Origin: Bacteroidetes bacterium QS_9_68_14
GTDB taxonomy: Bacteria > Bacteroidota > Rhodothermia > Rhodothermales > Salinibacteraceae
Assembly (NCBI GenBank): GCA_003022535.1
Contig: PXTT01000072.1
Location: forward strand, 1-33,539
Reading direction: 5' to 3'
DNA length: 33,539 nt
Shown here one piece after another: positions 19,624-33,400 of this stretch. Under the pieces are notes generated by a model. The model made no database searches and was not told where the DNA came from. It worked only from the letters and a program-made list of their open reading frames with translations. The stretch's first letter is position 1. The number at the start of each line of letters is the position of its first letter. Position numbers and translations under genes: made by a program.

Positions 19624-20768
19624 GTGCCCGCCACGCCCGATCTGCTCATCCAGTCCGCCACGTTGCTCTGGCCCGAAAGCGGCGAGACGCGCGTGGCCGA
19701 TGTGCTCATCCAGGGCGGCGAGATCGCGCAGATCGGCACGGACCTCGCGGCAGAGGACGTAGAGCCCTTCGACGCCGAGGGGCTGACCGTCTCGCCCGGC
19801 TGGGTGGACCTGCACGTGCATCTGCGCGAGCCGGGGCAGGAGCACAAAGAAACCATCCAGACCGGCACGCGCGCGGCGGCGGCCAGCGGCTTCACCGACG
19901 TGGCCTGCATGCCCAACACCGACCCCCCGCTCGACACGCGCGAGGGCGTGGAGTTCGTGCGCGAGCAGGCCGAGGGGCAGCCGGTGGCCGTGCACCCTAT
20001 TGGGTGCGTCTCGAAGGGGCGCGACGGGCACGAGCTGGCCGAGATGGGCGCGCTGGCGGAGGGCGGAGCGGTCGCCTTCAGCGACGACGGGGCGCCCGTC
20101 TACGATGCCGCCCTGATGCGCCGCGCGCTGGAGTACAGCCGCATGGTCGGCGCGCCGGTCGTCAACCACATGGAAGCGCGCGCGCTTTCGAAAAACGGCC
20201 ACATGCACGAGGGCGAAGTCTCCGCGCGCCTCGGGCTCGGCGGCATCCCCGCCCTCGCCGACGACGTGATGATCGCCCGCGACGTGCGGCTGGCGGAGGC
20301 GACCGGCGGGCATCTGCACGTGGCGCACCTTTCCACGAAAGGCGGCGTCGAGGCGGTGCGCCGGGCGAAGGCGCGCGGTCTCAATGTCACCGCCGAGGTG
20401 TGCACGCACCACCTTGCTCTCACCGACCGCGCCGTGGAGGACACCGCGTTTTCTACGCACACGAAAATGCACCCGCCCCTGCGCGGCCCCGAGCACGTGG
20501 AGGCGCTAAAAAACGGCCTCGCCTCACGCTGGCGGAGGCGATCCAGAAGCTCACCGCCGCCCCGCGCGAGGTGCTGGGGCTCCCCGCCGCGCGCCTCGCG
20601 GAAGGAGAGCCGGCGAATCTCACGATCTTCGACCCCGAGGCGCGCTGGACCTTTTCCGAAAGCCACATCCACTCGAAGAGCCAGAACACGCCCTTCGTGG
20701 GGACGAAGCTGGTGGGCCGTCCCGTGGGGGTCTACAATCGAGGGCGATTCGTAGATAGTGGATTGTAG
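19624..20768 (+). pseudogene. pyrC: Dihydroorotase with internal deletion and frameshift
   Basis: The reading frame encodes a type I dihydroorotase, the third step of pyrimidine synthesis. A GTG at 19624 starts PATPDLLIQSATLLWP, followed by the metal motif WVDLHVHLREPGQEHKE, FTDVACMPNTDPP, AFSDDGAPV, VVNHMEARAL, LHVAHLSTKGG, VTAEVCTHHLALT and KMHPPLRGPEHVEALKNGLA. At about 20518-20524 the sequence jumps to LTLAEAIQKLTAAPREVLGLP in another frame, then EGEPANLTIFDP and FVGTKLVGRPVGV. Intact enzymes have about 35-45 residues between these points, including the catalytic TDHAPH segment (DxAxH). So a stretch of a length not divisible by three is missing. The product could not be active as written. 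The coding signal on both sides of the junction is otherwise pristine, so the loss is recent or artefactual. Confidence 0.85.
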
Positions 20769-27112: not shown

Positions 27113-28195
27113 ATGACCTCCGCCTCCGCCGCCGACGCGCATGCGCTTCTGGATGCGCACGACCCCATTCTACTGACCACCCACACCAGCCCCGACGGCG
27201 ACGCCATCGGCTCGGAGCTGGGGCTGGCGCGCTACCTGCGGCAGCGGGGCAAGCGCGTGACCATCCTCAACGACGACGACCTGCCCGACCACCTCGCGTT
27301 CCTGCCGGGCGCGGAGGAGGTTGAGGTCTTCGCGGAAGCGTCCGTCGAGCAAAAGAAAGCCCTCGCGGAGGCGGAGCTCGCCGTGGCGCTGGACACCAAC
27401 GCCGCCGAGCGCCTTGGGGCCCTGGCCGAGCCGATCCAGCAGGGCGGGGCCGAGGTGCTGCTGATCGACCATCACACCGAGCCGGAGGGCTGGTTCGACC
27501 ACGCCTTTCAGCGCGACACCGCCGCCGCCACCGCCGAGCTGCTCTGCGAAGTGATCGAGGCGGGCGCTCCCGAGCTGATCGACGCGGACGTGGCCACGCC
27601 GCTCTACACGGGGCTGATGACCGACACCGGCTCGTTCCGCTACTCCAGTGTGACGCCGCGGGTGCACCGTACGACGGCCACGCTCCTGCAGCGCGGCGGC
27701 ATCTCGCCTGCGCCCATCCACTCGGCGCTCTACGACAACCGCTCGCTCGCGTCGCTGCGTTTGCTGGGGCGGGCGCTGGACCGCATTCGCCTGCGCTACG
27801 ACGGGTTCGTGGGCTACACCACCGTCACGCCCGCGGTGCTGGAGGCCGCCGGCGCGGGGCCGGAGGACAAGCACGGCCTCGTCGGCCACGTCCTCAGCGT
27901 GGCCGGGGTGGGGGCGGCGTTGCTCTTTACCGAGACGCAGGGCGGCACGAAAGTCAGCTTCCGCTCCGAGGGCGATACGCACGTGGACGGCTGGGCGCGC
28001 TCCTTCGGCGGGGGCGGGCACCGGAACGCCAGTGGGGCCTACCTCGAGGAGTTTTCGCTCGCCGAGGCGCTCGATGACGTGCTCGCCGCCGCGCCACAGC
28101 ACATCGGGGTGGAGCCGGAGGAGGCGCGCGGCGCGCTCACCGGCGAAGACGCCGCCGACCTGGCCGCCGCGATGAAGGCGCAGGGAGCGGGTTGA
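27113..28195 (+). CDS. DHH/DHHA1 phosphoesterase, NrnA type
   Basis: This 360-residue protein is a DHH-family phosphoesterase of the NrnA type (bifunctional oligoribonuclease and 3'-phosphoadenosine 5'-phosphate phosphatase), which clears short RNAs or pAp; some relatives hydrolyse cyclic dinucleotide products. Motifs visible in order are THTSPDGDAIGSELGL (metal site I), ALDTNAAERLG, LLIDHHTEPEGW (the DHH signature), LMTDTGSFRYSS, and the DHHA1 domain closing with GWARSFGGGGHRNASGAYL, the GGGH substrate-binding motif. Length is typical apart from about 25 extra C-terminal residues. ATG 27113 begins about 20 residues before the first motif, as usual. It is on the same strand as the lipoprotein gene, 106 bases downstream, and ends at a hairpin. 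Confidence 0.92.
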   Translation: MTSASAADAHALLDAHDPILLTTHTSPDGDAIGSELGLARYLRQRGKRVTILNDDDLPDHLAFLPGAEEVEVFAEASVEQKKALAEAELAVALDTNAAERLGALAEPIQQGGAEVLLIDHHTEPEGWFDHAFQRDTAAATAELLCEVIEAGAPELIDADVATPLYTGLMTDTGSFRYSSVTPRVHRTTATLLQRGGISPAPIHSALYDNRSLASLRLLGRALDRIRLRYDGFVGYTTVTPAVLEAAGAGPEDKHGLVGHVLSVAGVGAALLFTETQGGTKVSFRSEGDTHVDGWARSFGGGGHRNASGAYLEEFSLAEALDDVLAAAPQHIGVEPEEARGALTGEDAADLAAAMKAQGAG

Positions 28196-28228
28196 GCGCG
28201 GGGCGCGCTGCGCATCTCTGCCCCGCGC
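28196..28228. terminator. Bidirectional hairpin between nrnA-type gene and capA-like gene
   Basis: GCGCGGGGC pairs perfectly with GCCCCGCGC around a 15-base loop, starting on the base after the nrnA-type stop codon. The convergent capA-like gene ends at 28255, so the nine-pair stem can serve both. No T-run follows on either strand. Confidence 0.5.
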
Positions 28229-28254
28229 CCCTGGGACGACTTTCCGGCGCGGGG

Positions 28255-29181
28255 TCACTCCGTCCCGGACGAGCGCGGATGAACGCGGCACTGGCGGGGG
28301 GCCGTGCGGTCCAGGCGTACCGCCTGGTAGCGCGCCTCGGCCACTACCGGCGGTGCGTCGGGCGGGTGCGCCAGCCCGATCTTTAGAAGCGCCCCTTCTC
28401 CGAGCACGGGTAGCGTCTTGGCCGTTAGGAAATTGCCGAGCGACCAGGCCACGAGCGGGCCGTCCGTCACGTCCTCCAGCGGCTGGGGCAGGTGCGAGTG
28501 GTGCCCGGCGACGAGTTCGTAGTTGAGGGGCAGGCGGTGGCGCTGGTTCGAGCGGGGGCGGCGCTCGTGCTCGTAGCCCCAGTGCGGAAGCGCCACGCGC
28601 GCCAGCGGGGCCGACGCCGCTTCGGGCGCCCCGGGGTCGCGCCGGGGAAGCAGCGTCGTCCTCCGGTTGCTCCACCACGTCCATGCCGCCAGCGCGAGGC
28701 CCGCTTCTGGCACCGTGAGCGTCGGGTGCTCGCGCGTGCCCAGCCAGCGGATGCCGTGCCGGTTGAGGCGCGCGGTCGTGGTGCGCAGCGCCGGCGGCCC
28801 AAAGTCCGCGGCATGGTTGTTGGCGAGCGACACGACCCACTGCCGGAGTGGCTTCAAGCGCGCCATCGCGTCGAAGATGGATGGCGTGTGCTTTAGCCGG
28901 AAGGGCCGGCCACGCTGCTTGGTGAAGACGCCTTCGAGATTGCCGACCAGCAACGCGCAATCGTCGAAGAACGCGTGGACGGCCTCCGCGTAGCGGGCGT
29001 CGCGCCCGTCGAGCGGGCAGAGGTCGCCTACGAACCCGATCCAGCGGTCCGGCGCCCGGTGGGGATGGCGGTCGAGGTGCCGGGCTACAGGCGCGTCACC
29101 CCAGGGCGGGACCGGCGAGAAGCGACGCCACGCCATGCCGGCGAACTCGCGCAGTGAATACGGGCTTCCGGGGAAACGCAT
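28255..29181 (-). CDS. CapA-family metallophosphatase-like protein
   Basis: This 308-residue protein is of the CapA/PgsA-type (PGA_cap) family, a calcineurin-like fold found in capsule poly-gamma-glutamate synthesis proteins and many relatives of unknown role. Visible motifs are IGFVGDLCP (metal Asp), LLVGNLEGVFT, FRLKHTPSIFDAM, VVSLANNHAADFG (the Asn-His pair of the family), ALPHWGYEHERRPR and ELVAGHHSHLPQPLE, and AWSLGNFLT. A signal peptide is not evident, unlike classical membrane-bound CapA. ATG 29181 is used; the first conserved motif is at about residue 48. Poly-gamma-glutamate synthase partners (CapB/C) are absent, so capsule synthesis should not be assumed. It lies 97 bases after the MFS gene on the same strand. 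Confidence 0.82.
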   Translation of the reverse strand: MRFPGSPYSLREFAGMAWRRFSPVPPWGDAPVARHLDRHPHRAPDRWIGFVGDLCPLDGRDARYAEAVHAFFDDCALLVGNLEGVFTKQRGRPFRLKHTPSIFDAMARLKPLRQWVVSLANNHAADFGPPALRTTTARLNRHGIRWLGTREHPTLTVPEAGLALAAWTWWSNRRTTLLPRRDPGAPEAASAPLARVALPHWGYEHERRPRSNQRHRLPLNYELVAGHHSHLPQPLEDVTDGPLVAWSLGNFLTAKTLPVLGEGALLKIGLAHPPDAPPVVAEARYQAVRLDRTAPRQCRVHPRSSGTE

Positions 29182-29249
29182 GGAAAAACGGGTCGTTCGT
29201 GCGTGCCGTCAGTCCGTCGCGCGTGGGGACCGGCGGGGCGCTTGCGCCA

Positions 29250-29281
29250 TGCGGCGCCTGCGTCGTGCGGCGCCTGCGTCA
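29250..29281. repeat. Two-copy 16-bp tandem repeat at the end of the MFS gene
   Basis: TGCGGCGCCTGCGTCG is followed directly by TGCGGCGCCTGCGTCA, differing only at the last base. The second copy contains the MFS stop codon on the minus strand. It is a small tandem duplication in the spacer before the capA-like gene. Confidence 0.6.
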
Positions 29282-30550
29282 TGCCTTGACGGCGAGCTGC
29301 GTGGCGCGTGGCCAGTACAGCAACGCCAGGACCCCGCCGCTCACGGCCACGGCGGACAGAAAAATGCCCTGGAACCCCAGCAGCGCGTCGAGCGGCACGA
29401 TGAGGCCGCTGCCCAGCACGTTGCAGAGGTTGCCCAGGGTCATGTAAGTGGTAAACTGCGTGGCGGCGACCTCTTCGCGCACCGTGTCCATGAACAGCGC
29501 CGCGAGGGTGGTCTTGAGCGTCATGTCCAGCAGCATGGCCAGGCCCACGAAGGCTACGACGACGCCGTCGGCCGGCCACCAGGGGCGCGCCAGCGTGAAG
29601 GCAACCAGCAACATCAGGAGGCCGGCGGTCGTGCCTACGAGCGTGCGCCGCCGGCCCAGGCGGTCGGCGACCCACCCGCCGAGGGCCGCCCCCACGACGC
29701 CCATCAGGAGCGCCGGCCCGCCCGTGAACTGCGAGTAGCCGAGGTCCGACCACCCGGCCGCCTGCACGGCAAAGACCGGCCCGATGGCGACCAACATGCG
29801 CGTCGGCAGGGCGGCGACGAGCGCCAGCCCGGCGGCGGCCCGGGCGGGGGCGGGGCGAAAGGCGCGCCGCAGCTTGACCAGCAGGCGGCGCCACCCGTCC
29901 TGCGTGCTCTTCCGAGCCCACGCGCTGCGCACAGCCGCAGGCGGCGCCAGCAGACGGTCGCCGGCCCGCTCGCGCACCAACAGCACGAGCACCACCGCCC
30001 CGAAGAGTCCCCCGATCTGCGCCCAGACTGCCGCGTCGAAGTGGACCCGGGCAATCAGCGTGCTCAGGCCCGCTCCGCCCACGGCAATGCCCAGCACCTT
30101 TCCGCTCCACATGAGCCCATTGGCGATTCCGCGTTCGTCCTCGTCGAGCAGGTCCACGGCCAGCCCGTCGGTAGCTACGTCTTGCAGCGCTCCGAACGTG
30201 TTGTGGAAAAACAGCAGTGCCGCCAGCGCGACGGGCCGGTGGCCTGCGCCCGGCACGGCCAGCAGCAGCGCCATCGAGCCTACCATGCCGACCTGCGAGA
30301 GCAGAATCCAGGGCCGCCGCCGCCCCATCGGGGACATGGCGTAGCGGTCCACGAGCGGCCCGTAGATCAGCTTAAACGTCCAGGGCAGATAGCTCACGGC
30401 CAGGAAGGCGGCCACGGCGCTTGCCGAAAAACCCTGGTCGGCCAGCAGGGCCGCCAGCGTGACGGTTCCGAAACCCGTCGGGATGCCCTGCGTCAGGTAT
30501 AGGACGCTCAGGACGGGGAGCCGCAGCCGGGACGCGTTCGACAGCGTCAT
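29279..30550 (-). CDS. MFS transporter
   Basis: This protein of about 423 residues is a major-facilitator transporter with roughly twelve hydrophobic segments. The N-terminal half has LSVLYLTQGIPTGFGTVTLAALL, FAVSYLPWTFKLIYGPLVDR-like text (AFLAVSYLPWTFKLIYG) and the loop signature DRYAMSPMGRRRPWIL after segment 2. The start of this half resembles AmpG/acetyl-CoA-transporter (PAT) relatives, which share the LPWTFK-YGPLVDR motif. The corresponding C-terminal loop GGWVADRLGRRR is also present. A long basic cytosolic loop joins the halves. ATG 30550 is chosen because it directly precedes the first segment; ATG 30643 would add 31 residues that include another hydrophobic stretch. A muropeptide substrate is conceivable from the AmpG resemblance but is not shown. 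Confidence 0.85.
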   Translation of the reverse strand: MTLSNASRLRLPVLSVLYLTQGIPTGFGTVTLAALLADQGFSASAVAAFLAVSYLPWTFKLIYGPLVDRYAMSPMGRRRPWILLSQVGMVGSMALLLAVPGAGHRPVALAALLFFHNTFGALQDVATDGLAVDLLDEDERGIANGLMWSGKVLGIAVGGAGLSTLIARVHFDAAVWAQIGGLFGAVVLVLLVRERAGDRLLAPPAAVRSAWARKSTQDGWRRLLVKLRRAFRPAPARAAAGLALVAALPTRMLVAIGPVFAVQAAGWSDLGYSQFTGGPALLMGVVGAALGGWVADRLGRRRTLVGTTAGLLMLLVAFTLARPWWPADGVVVAFVGLAMLLDMTLKTTLAALFMDTVREEVAATQFTTYMTLGNLCNVLGSGLIVPLDALLGFQGIFLSAVAVSGGVLALLYWPRATQLAVKA

Positions 30551-30654
30551 GCAGGCGGTGAGGGCAAACAGCAGGAACTCCGCGTGACGCGCCCAGCGAC
30601 TGCGCGGTTCGGAGCGCTCCGGCACGCTCCTCGAGAGGGCCATGCCGCTCGCTC

Positions 30655-30660: not shown

Positions 30661-30704
30661 ACCACCCTCGGCCAGCAATTGCAACGTTGCCAGCAGGAAA
30701 ACGC

Positions 30705-31838
30705 ATGAGCGAAGTCCATTCCGCGCGCCGTCCCGTCGTGGCCGTTCCGCTGGGGGACCCCGGCGGCATCGGGCCGGAGGTGGCCCTCAAAGCCGCCACT
30801 GACGAGCGCATCCGGCAGAAGGCGCGGCTGCTGATGGTCGGCTCGGCGGCCGTGCTGCGCAGCCACGCCGACGCGCTCGCTGAGCGCTTCTCCTCCCCGG
30901 GAGAACAGGAGCGCGCGTTGCCGGAGCTGGCCGTCGTGCCGGGCGTGCCGGACCGCTTTCCTGAGGGCGCGTTGCCCGTGCTGGACGTGGCCGAGCCGGA
31001 GGCGCCGGGTTTTTCTTTCGGCGAAGTCACCCGAGCCGGCGGACGTCTCTCGATGCGCGCCGTGGAGCGCGCCGTGGAGCTCTGCGACGCCGGCGCTGCC
31101 GACGCGATGACGACCGCGCCCATCTCGAAGGCCGCCATCGCTCGCGCTGGCTACCGCGCCCCCGGCCACACCGAGTTCATCGCCGAGAAGACCAGTGGCC
31201 CTGGGCAGCAGTTTGAGCCGCTTATGCTGATGGTCGGCGCTCCGGCCGTCGGCGATGCTTCTGCGTTGCGCGTGGGGCTGGTAAGCGTGCACGAGCCGCT
31301 GGCGCAGGCGCCCCGTTCGGTGACGCCCGGCGCGATCCGGCGCAAGCTGGAGGTCTTGACCGGGAGCCTACGGCGCGACTTTGGCGCGCAGGCGCCCCGC
31401 ATCGCGGTGCTGGGCCTCAACCCGCACGCCGGCGACGACGGCGCGCTGGGCGAGAAAGAGGAAACGATCATCGCGCCGGCGCTCCGGGCGGCCCGCCACG
31501 ACGACGGCCTGGCTGAACAAGGCGCCACGCTCGACGGCCCGTTGCCGGCCGACGGCTTCTTCGGCACGCGCGGGTGGGAGCGCTACGACGCGGTGCTGGC
31601 GATGTACCACGACCAGGGGCTGGCGCCCTTCAAGGCGCTCACCTTCGGCAAGGGGGTCAACGTGACGGCGGGCCTGCCGGTCGTGCGCACCTCGCCGGAC
31701 CACGGCACGGCTTTCGACATCGCGGGCGAGGGGTGCGCCCACCCCGGCAGTATGAAAGCGGCGCTGCGCCTCGCCACCGACATTGCGCAAAGGCGCCAGG
31801 CCGTGGACCGTCGAACCCAGCGTGAGCGGCGCAAATGA
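30705..31838 (+). CDS. pdxA: 4-hydroxythreonine-4-phosphate dehydrogenase
   Basis: This 377-residue enzyme oxidises 4-phosphohydroxy-L-threonine in the DXP-dependent vitamin B6 pathway. Conserved parts are PVVAVPLGDPGGIGPEVALKA at the start, DAMTTAPISKAAIARAGY, PGHTEFIAE (first metal His), GLVSVHEPL (second His), LGLNPHAGDDGALGEKE, DGPLPADGFF, and AMYHDQGLAPFKAL (third metal His), ending with RTSPDHGTAFDIAG. All three zinc ligands are present and length is only slightly above the usual 330, so it looks functional. ATG 30705 is chosen because homology begins ten residues later and an AGGAAA-like ribosome site lies just upstream, rare in this window. Its stop overlaps the ATG of the methyltransferase (ATGA), suggesting an operon that runs on towards ftsE. 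PLP made by this pathway serves alr and the transsulfuration enzyme. Confidence 0.95.
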   Translation: MSEVHSARRPVVAVPLGDPGGIGPEVALKAATDERIRQKARLLMVGSAAVLRSHADALAERFSSPGEQERALPELAVVPGVPDRFPEGALPVLDVAEPEAPGFSFGEVTRAGGRLSMRAVERAVELCDAGAADAMTTAPISKAAIARAGYRAPGHTEFIAEKTSGPGQQFEPLMLMVGAPAVGDASALRVGLVSVHEPLAQAPRSVTPGAIRRKLEVLTGSLRRDFGAQAPRIAVLGLNPHAGDDGALGEKEETIIAPALRAARHDDGLAEQGATLDGPLPADGFFGTRGWERYDAVLAMYHDQGLAPFKALTFGKGVNVTAGLPVVRTSPDHGTAFDIAGEGCAHPGSMKAALRLATDIAQRRQAVDRRTQRERRK

Positions 31839-32655
31839 CGAGCCAATCCGAAAACCAAAACCTCGAATCCGAAATCTACACCGCGGCCTTGGCGGAGGCG
31901 TACGAGGCGGTCATGGCGCACGTGGACTACCCGCGCTGGGCCAGCTACGCGCACGACCTCCTGCAGGCGCACGCTTCGCCGAAGCGGGGGCCGCTGGGGC
32001 CGCGTCGCCTTCTGGAGCTGGGCTGTGGCACCGGGGCGCTGGCGCGCCATCTCCAGCGGCCCGCGCCCAGTCGCTGCCCCTCCGGTTTCGGCCGGCGCGC
32101 TTCACCCGCGTGGCCGGCGACCTGGCGGAGGGGAAGGCGCCCTTCGACGTCGCGTTCTTCGACGCCGCGTTGCTGCTGTACGACGGGCTTAACTATCTGC
32201 TCGAGGAGCGCCGGGTGCGCCGCCTGCTCGCGGAGGTCACGCGCGTGCTGCGGCCTGGCGGCCTCTTTCTGTTCGACCACGCCACGCCGGCCAACTCCGC
32301 CGACGGCCCCGACCCGTTCGAGTATGAGGGCGTCTTTGAGGACGAGCGTTTCGAGGACGCGTGCGAGGGGCGCTACTGGCGCACCAGCCGATACGACCCT
32401 GGCGCGCGCTTGCACTACACGACCTTCGAGCTAAGGGGCCCGGCGGGAAGCTACACCGAGCGCCACGTGCAGCGCGTCTACGACCCCGGCGAGGTCCGCG
32501 CGTTGCTGCACCGTAGCCCGCTGGTGCCGGTGGCTGCCTACGACGGCCTCACCACCGACCCGGCCACGCCGCAGAGCCACCGCGTGCACTGGCTGGCGCG
32601 CTCGGGTACGGGAGAGAGGGGGAGTGCGGGAGAAAATCGGGCCGCCAGTGAGTAA
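31835..32655 (+). pseudogene. Class I SAM methyltransferase with internal deletion and frameshift
   Basis: The first frame from ATG 31835 encodes a class I methyltransferase start, IYTAALAEAYEAVMAHVDYPRW, and SAM motif I RLLELGCGTGALARHLQ. Near 32055-32070 this frame turns into Arg/Pro/Ser-rich nonsense. The frame one step over then continues as good protein: AQSLPLRFRPARFTRVAGDL, FDVAFFDAALLLYDGLNYLLEE, VTRVLRPGGLFLFDHATP, and a full C-terminal half ending near 32655. In intact relatives about 20-30 residues (motif II with its acidic residue, and the helix after it) lie between the two parts. So a piece whose length is not a multiple of three is missing. The substrate is unknown. It overlaps the pdxA stop and is followed by ftsE. 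Confidence 0.8.
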
Positions 32656-32716
32656 GGGCCTTCCAGGGCTCGACCCTCCAACCTCCGACGTTCAACGCGG
32701 AACCGCCGAAGGCCCC

Positions 32717-33400
32717 GTGATCGAACTCCGTGACGTAACGCTCTCCTACGACCTCCCCGGCGGTGAGCGCCGGCCCGTCGTCGAGGACCTTTCCCTCAGC
32801 ATCGACCGGGGAGAGCGCGTCTACCTCATCGGCCCTACCGGGAGCGGGAAGTCCACCATCTTGCGTCTGCTCTACATGGACCTGCTGCCCGATCACGGGC
32901 GCGCGAAGGTCGGCGACTACCGCACCGACCGTATTGAGGAGAAAGACATCCCCTACCTGCGCCGCTCGGTGGGCGTGGTCTTCCAGGACTTCCAACTTCT
33001 GCCCGACCGCACGGTCTACGACAACATCGCCTTCGCGCTCCAAGCCACGGGCAAGAGCGGTAGCGCCGTTAAGAACCGTGTGCTTCAGGTGCTCGCGCGG
33101 GTCGGCCTCACGCACAAGCGCAAGCGGTACCCGCACGAGATCAGCGGGGGAGAGCAGCAGCGCGTGGCCATCGCGCGGGCCATCGCCAACGAGCCGTGGA
33201 TCCTCCTGGCTGACGAGCCGACCGGCAACCTCGACCCGGGCGTGGGGGACGAGATCCAGAAGCTGCTGATGGGCCTGCACCGCCAGGGGATGACCCTGCT
33301 GACGGCCACGCACGACTACCGCCTCGTGCGCGAGTACCCGGCCCGCACGCTCGCGCTGATGAACGGCCAGCTCGTGGAGGTGGACCCGGAGACGATCTGA
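32717..33400 (+). CDS. ftsE: Cell-division ATP-binding protein FtsE
   Basis: This 227-residue ABC ATPase is FtsE, which with membrane partner FtsX controls peptidoglycan hydrolases at the division septum. The order is [13 protein letters not shown], Walker [23 protein letters not shown], the [28 protein letters not shown]-loop region that marks FtsE, signature [14 protein letters not shown], Walker [13 protein letters not shown] and H-loop ATHD. GTG 32717 gives the normal FtsE N-terminus. A GTG at 32624 would add 31 residues read from low-complexity spacer. No ftsX follows within the 139 bases left; it may be elsewhere, as happens in Bacteroidota. The LolD/MacB transporter type is less likely because of the [21 protein letters not shown] text. 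Confidence 0.92.

Follow-up and report, generated by a model that had tools for sequence, protein, structure and literature searches.

Local assembly errors in short-read metagenomes, in the passages of PMC7111523 that deal with them, consist of wrong sequence within scaffolds, occur beside N-filled joins and duplicated flanks, and give rise to incorrect genes; these passages also suspect such errors to be prominent in IDBA-UD assemblies. The same features are apparently encountered in the genome described here. The errors in PMC7111523 are defined by read support, whereas the present case was judged from sequence comparison alone. A second described situation is that of bacterial pseudogenes called from frameshifts, the subject of PMC11017572, where an apparent pseudogene is perhaps a technical artefact, as may be so in this case. 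According to PMC5532433, the Atacama salt-crust metagenomes reported there were assembled with IDBA_UD. The QS series, with the genome studied here as a member, presumably corresponds to these metagenomes, and its genomes would then be IDBA-UD assemblies.

The window is the whole stretch of DNA analysed, 33,539 nt long, and represents bases 1–33539 of contig C72 of Bacteroidetes bacterium QS_9_68_14 (G000), a draft genome of 1.76 Mb (1763 kb) in 76 contigs that is 56.16% complete and has a GC content of 68%. It was compared with Bacteroidetes bacterium QS_8_68_28 (G001), a MAG of the same genus from the QS_8 series, which serves as a yardstick with lesions of its own. A methyltransferase gene is situated on the forward strand of the window between pdxA upstream (30702–31838, +; Pfam PF04166, E 4.6e-95) and a gene for an ABC transporter ATPase downstream (32624–33400, +; Pfam PF00005, E 5.7e-35), each of which is a single open frame with an uncertain start codon.

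The methyltransferase gene is present in two parts that occupy different forward frames. The N-terminal part (31835–32056, +) contains the sequence LLELGCGTGA, which we take to be motif I of class I SAM-dependent methyltransferases, ends in ..RRLLELGCGTGALARHLQ and is 80% identical over 65 aa to the intact protein of G001. The C-terminal part (32062–32655, +) starts with RAQSLPLRFRPARFT.., carries the sequence from the presumed motif IV onward, ends at a stop codon and is 71% identical over 180 aa to the same protein. The G001 homologue encodes its 281 aa in one open frame without interruption, and both parts align to it in order. Nucleotide alignment against G001, with its list of gaps, placed the junction at 32057–32061 (+) and revealed one clean gap of 67 nt after position 32057, flanked by 60-nt segments that are 88% and 85% identical to G001. 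Since 67 is not divisible by three, the frame changes at this point. The segment absent from the window corresponds to about 22 residues of the G001 protein, namely PRGPYRYLATDASEAMLAVARR and one or two more, and an alignment with nine homologous proteins located it just after motif I, where motif II is presumably situated in methyltransferases of class I. Thus, the preliminary description, which had reported two parts in different frames with the motif II segment gone between them and had proposed comparison with full-length relatives for sizing the loss, was right in both the place and the kind of the lesion.

Both parts are open, and no stop codon was found inside either of them, as had also been described. 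Relative to G001, the N-terminal part has 15 synonymous and 12 nonsynonymous changed codons among 64, and the C-terminal part 48 of each among 179. When scanned alone, the N-terminal part had no Pfam match at E 0.001, and the C-terminal part scored 22.5 bits with Methyltransf_11 (cut-off 21.2) and 22.5 bits with Methyltransf_25, below the cut-off of 27. The intact G001 homologue exceeds the curated cut-off for Methyltransf_25 (63.8 bits versus 27). By its sequence, the gene is therefore that of an ordinary class I methyltransferase of the Methyltransf_25/Methyltransf_11 type, the pieces in the window aligning in order to the intact enzyme and differing from it in lacking the segment between motifs I and IV. 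Among the NCBIfam models, the G001 homologue matched only daptide_MTase (NF041820), for methyltransferases of daptide-type RiPPs, at E 1e-10; its score of 50.7 bits is far below the cut-off of 175 and hence no specific substrate class was assigned.

Homologues of the gene were sought in 59 genomes besides G000, of which 42 gave a match and 17 gave none at E 0.001; the latter include G002 from the same genus, and several of them are incomplete. Of the 42 matching genomes, 29 provided 29 loci, a second search gave 27, and since nine loci were in both sets, the 56 comprised 47 distinct loci, among them G001 itself and five distant ones (L082–L086, 22–28% identity), which by their genus and family names belong to Bacillota. 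With the intact G001 protein as the query, motifs I and IV fell within one tblastn match, and hence in one frame, in 46 of the 47 loci; the exception, L008, is uninformative because its N-terminal part is given as N. A further QS_8 MAG, QS_8_64_10 (G008), has the methyltransferase gene interrupted in its N-terminal part by a run of 47 N (L011:1252–1298; G008:C5), across which the frame changes and which is present in both collections that include the contig. When G000, which is 56% complete, was searched with the DNA of the window and with the C-terminal part, no second copy of the methyltransferase gene came to light; the sole other match to the DNA of the gene was one of 36 bases on contig C63.

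In order to place the 67-nt gap among other differences between the two genomes, 944 kb of the 1763 kb of G000, from 62 of its 76 contigs, were aligned with 893 kb of the roughly 1.8 Mb of G001, from 61 of its 90 contigs, many contigs being represented by their first 20 kb only, which gave about 296 kb in 60 chains for this one pair of genomes, of which G001 is itself a MAG. Gaps were retained by a strict filter if both flanks were conserved, the codon phase was the same on either side and the gap-free genome had an open frame. Only 32 of 519 gaps of 10–600 nt passed, the others being rejected for flank identity, flank gaps, codon-phase signal or open frame. None of the 19 coding gaps of 10–33 nt breaks the frame, as compared with 9 of the 13 longer ones (Fisher p = 2.5e-5, with the 33-nt cut chosen after the lengths were known). 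The picture did not change with cuts between 20 and 50 nt: frame-breaking gaps made up 0/13 of the shorter and 9/19 of the longer gaps at 20 nt, 0/17 and 9/15 at 25 nt, 1/20 and 8/12 at 40 nt, and 1/21 and 8/11 at 50 nt. The proportion of 9 in 13 is near two thirds, as would result from errors that are blind to the reading frame, and such frame-blind lesions across the sampled assembly are what is expected of local assembly errors. Seven of the nine gaps are in G000 and two in G001.

A looser comparison (30–1000 nt, good flanks, no coding filter) yielded 41 gaps, 20 that break the frame (14 in G000, 6 in G001) and 21 that keep it (13 in G000, 8 in G001). One of the six frame-breaking gaps on the G001 side is better read as an exact 41-nt duplication in gyrB of G000. 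The gaps that keep the frame, 21 of these 41 and 4 of the 13 longer coding gaps in the strict set, may be ordinary indels. The frame-breaking gaps are 34–148 nt long in 18 of 20 cases. At their edges the gap-free genome has 3 nt or less of matching sequence in 18 of 20, as compared with 15 of 21 for the in-frame gaps, and repeat-mediated recombination is therefore not indicated. Five of the 20 have no frame that passes the codon-phase mark, namely those in dihydroorotase and gyrB and those at C6:9460, C20:12738 and C56:5049, and for the last three no gene is claimed.

The dihydroorotase gene also lies in the window. Its first part (19645–20523, +) matches NCBIfam dihydroorotase models up to profile position 295 or so, and its last part, in another frame (20523–20768, +), matches from about position 332–362. 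Relative to G001, 148 nt are absent at 20523 between flanks of 100% and 97% identity. The next best dihydroorotase match in G000 is 32% identical and is followed by four short ones. The lesion in the methyltransferase had been called the second such deletion; the 148-nt gap fits as the first, the pairing of the two being a guess. In gyrB, the frame is broken by an exact tandem duplication of 41 nt (L104:1198–1279; G000:C18) of a stretch that occurs once in G001, and elsewhere in G000 only a 57%-identical gyrB paralogue was found. Both this duplication and the dihydroorotase gap come from the looser comparison and are outside the strict set. Of mreC and of the gene for class I fructose-bisphosphate aldolase, the G000 draft contains only the two pieces of the broken gene.

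The names of the genes broken in G000 were taken from scans of the intact G001 homologues, with scores above the curated cut-offs for mreC, class I fructose-bisphosphate aldolase, recQ, thiO and a peptide transporter. Names based on scores below the cut-off are those of a DprA-like fragment, YfmF-like and PvdQ-like proteins, and the gyrB and dihydroorotase pieces. On contig C40 of G000, the frame-breaking gaps in thiO and in the class I aldolase gene are 1.8 kb apart (L146:2477 and L146:4277). Lesions in genes expected to be essential, with no intact copy of their type found in G000, thus affect gyrB, mreC and the class I aldolase gene, a further copy being possible in a genome that is 56% complete.

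Runs of N occur in the same set of contigs. A run of 238 N starts at C72:33540, the base directly after the window, and is probably a scaffold join. In the sampled 944 kb of G000 there are 13 runs, 4–302 nt in length, and one of them, of 141 N, stands opposite 131 bases between the matching flanks in G001, which fits a scaffold gap of estimated size. Some of the runs could be something other than scaffold gaps.

A programmed frameshift, or another form of recoding that makes a working protein out of the two frames, would be in keeping with the openness and the conservation of both halves relative to G001, and a conserved frameshift in relatives had been named in the preliminary description as the finding that would overturn its reading. 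No such frameshift is seen in the relatives, as the 46 readable loci have the two halves in one frame; moreover, a change of frame would not restore the protein, which would still lack about 22 residues around motif II, and no slippery heptamer of the X-XXY-YYZ type starts at 32020–32109. Recoding was rejected on these three grounds and is considered extremely improbable. Just as improbable is a split enzyme composed of two separate cooperating proteins: the C-terminal part does have an open frame of its own, but both halves lack the motif II segment, and no such split was seen among the 46 readable loci. The occurrence of 46 loci in one frame thus indicates neither.

A real and recent deletion of 67 nt, which would have made the gene a young pseudogene in the strain or in a part of the population, is the main rival explanation. 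The frame is broken relative to intact relatives (G001 and the 46 loci), as is usual for pseudogenes, the junction is clean, both parts are free of stop codons, and synonymous changes are present on either side. A recent deletion would equally give clean flanks and disregard the frame, the window copy is the only clear one found in G000, and the gene may be dispensable, judging from the 17 genomes with no match. Against such a deletion stands the recurrence of the same type of lesion across the sampled genome in gyrB, mreC, aldolase and dihydroorotase, genes that a cell needs. Their joint loss is not expected and is implausible in a living cell, which argues against real deletions, and this explanation is accordingly regarded as unlikely. 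Deletion mediated by repeats was tried and rejected, since the gap edges share 0 nt in G001 and the direct repeats of 31835–32300 have no copies at the junction; a short repeat in the ancestral G000 sequence is possible as the origin of the 67-nt loss. It is very doubtful that the lineage is in a burst of real short deletions (mostly 34–148 nt) that disregard the frame, involve almost no microhomology and affect housekeeping genes too, leaving many fresh pseudogenes.

The loss of 67 nt is thus very probably a local assembly error, and the organism itself most likely has an intact methyltransferase gene. The assembler or a scaffolding step would have butt-joined two contig ends over a short unresolved stretch and dropped about 67 nt; in some cases such stretches would have received a run of N, and in others their ends would have been joined directly. 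The sizes of the frame-breaking gaps (34–148 nt in most cases) resemble the lengths of the N runs, which suggests a shared origin with one or the other outcome. The join in silico, the nature of the N runs as scaffold joins and IDBA-UD as the assembler are the parts of this scheme that we infer. Of the earlier claim that the methyltransferase is broken, the frame-breaking loss in the sequence relative to full-length relatives stands, whereas a break in the organism is not supported, because frame-blind gaps recur in the sampled part of the draft, in housekeeping genes as well. The N-filled joins and the probable assembler speak for a local assembly error.

If the loss is an artefact, it would be wrong to annotate the gene as a pseudogene, and frame breaks elsewhere in the draft are equally doubtful; if the deletion is real, one accessory methyltransferase has been lost. 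The finding itself is of low interest, and its use is as a warning on frame breaks in this draft. Where a genome of the same genus is available, short gaps that keep the frame together with longer gaps that are blind to it provide a simple flag for errors that requires no reads.

Two other segments of the window differ from G001 in position or presence. Most of 28183–30525 has no counterpart at the syntenic position of G001; the segment holds most of a frame of 454 aa (29279–30643, −), whose product by eye resembles an MFS-type transporter. The segment 1193–1982 is not found at the syntenic place in G001 (contig C36), and its bases 1255–1849 match another contig of G001 (C70:27069–27666) with 90% identity, which points to a rearrangement or a wrong join at this place in one or the other draft.
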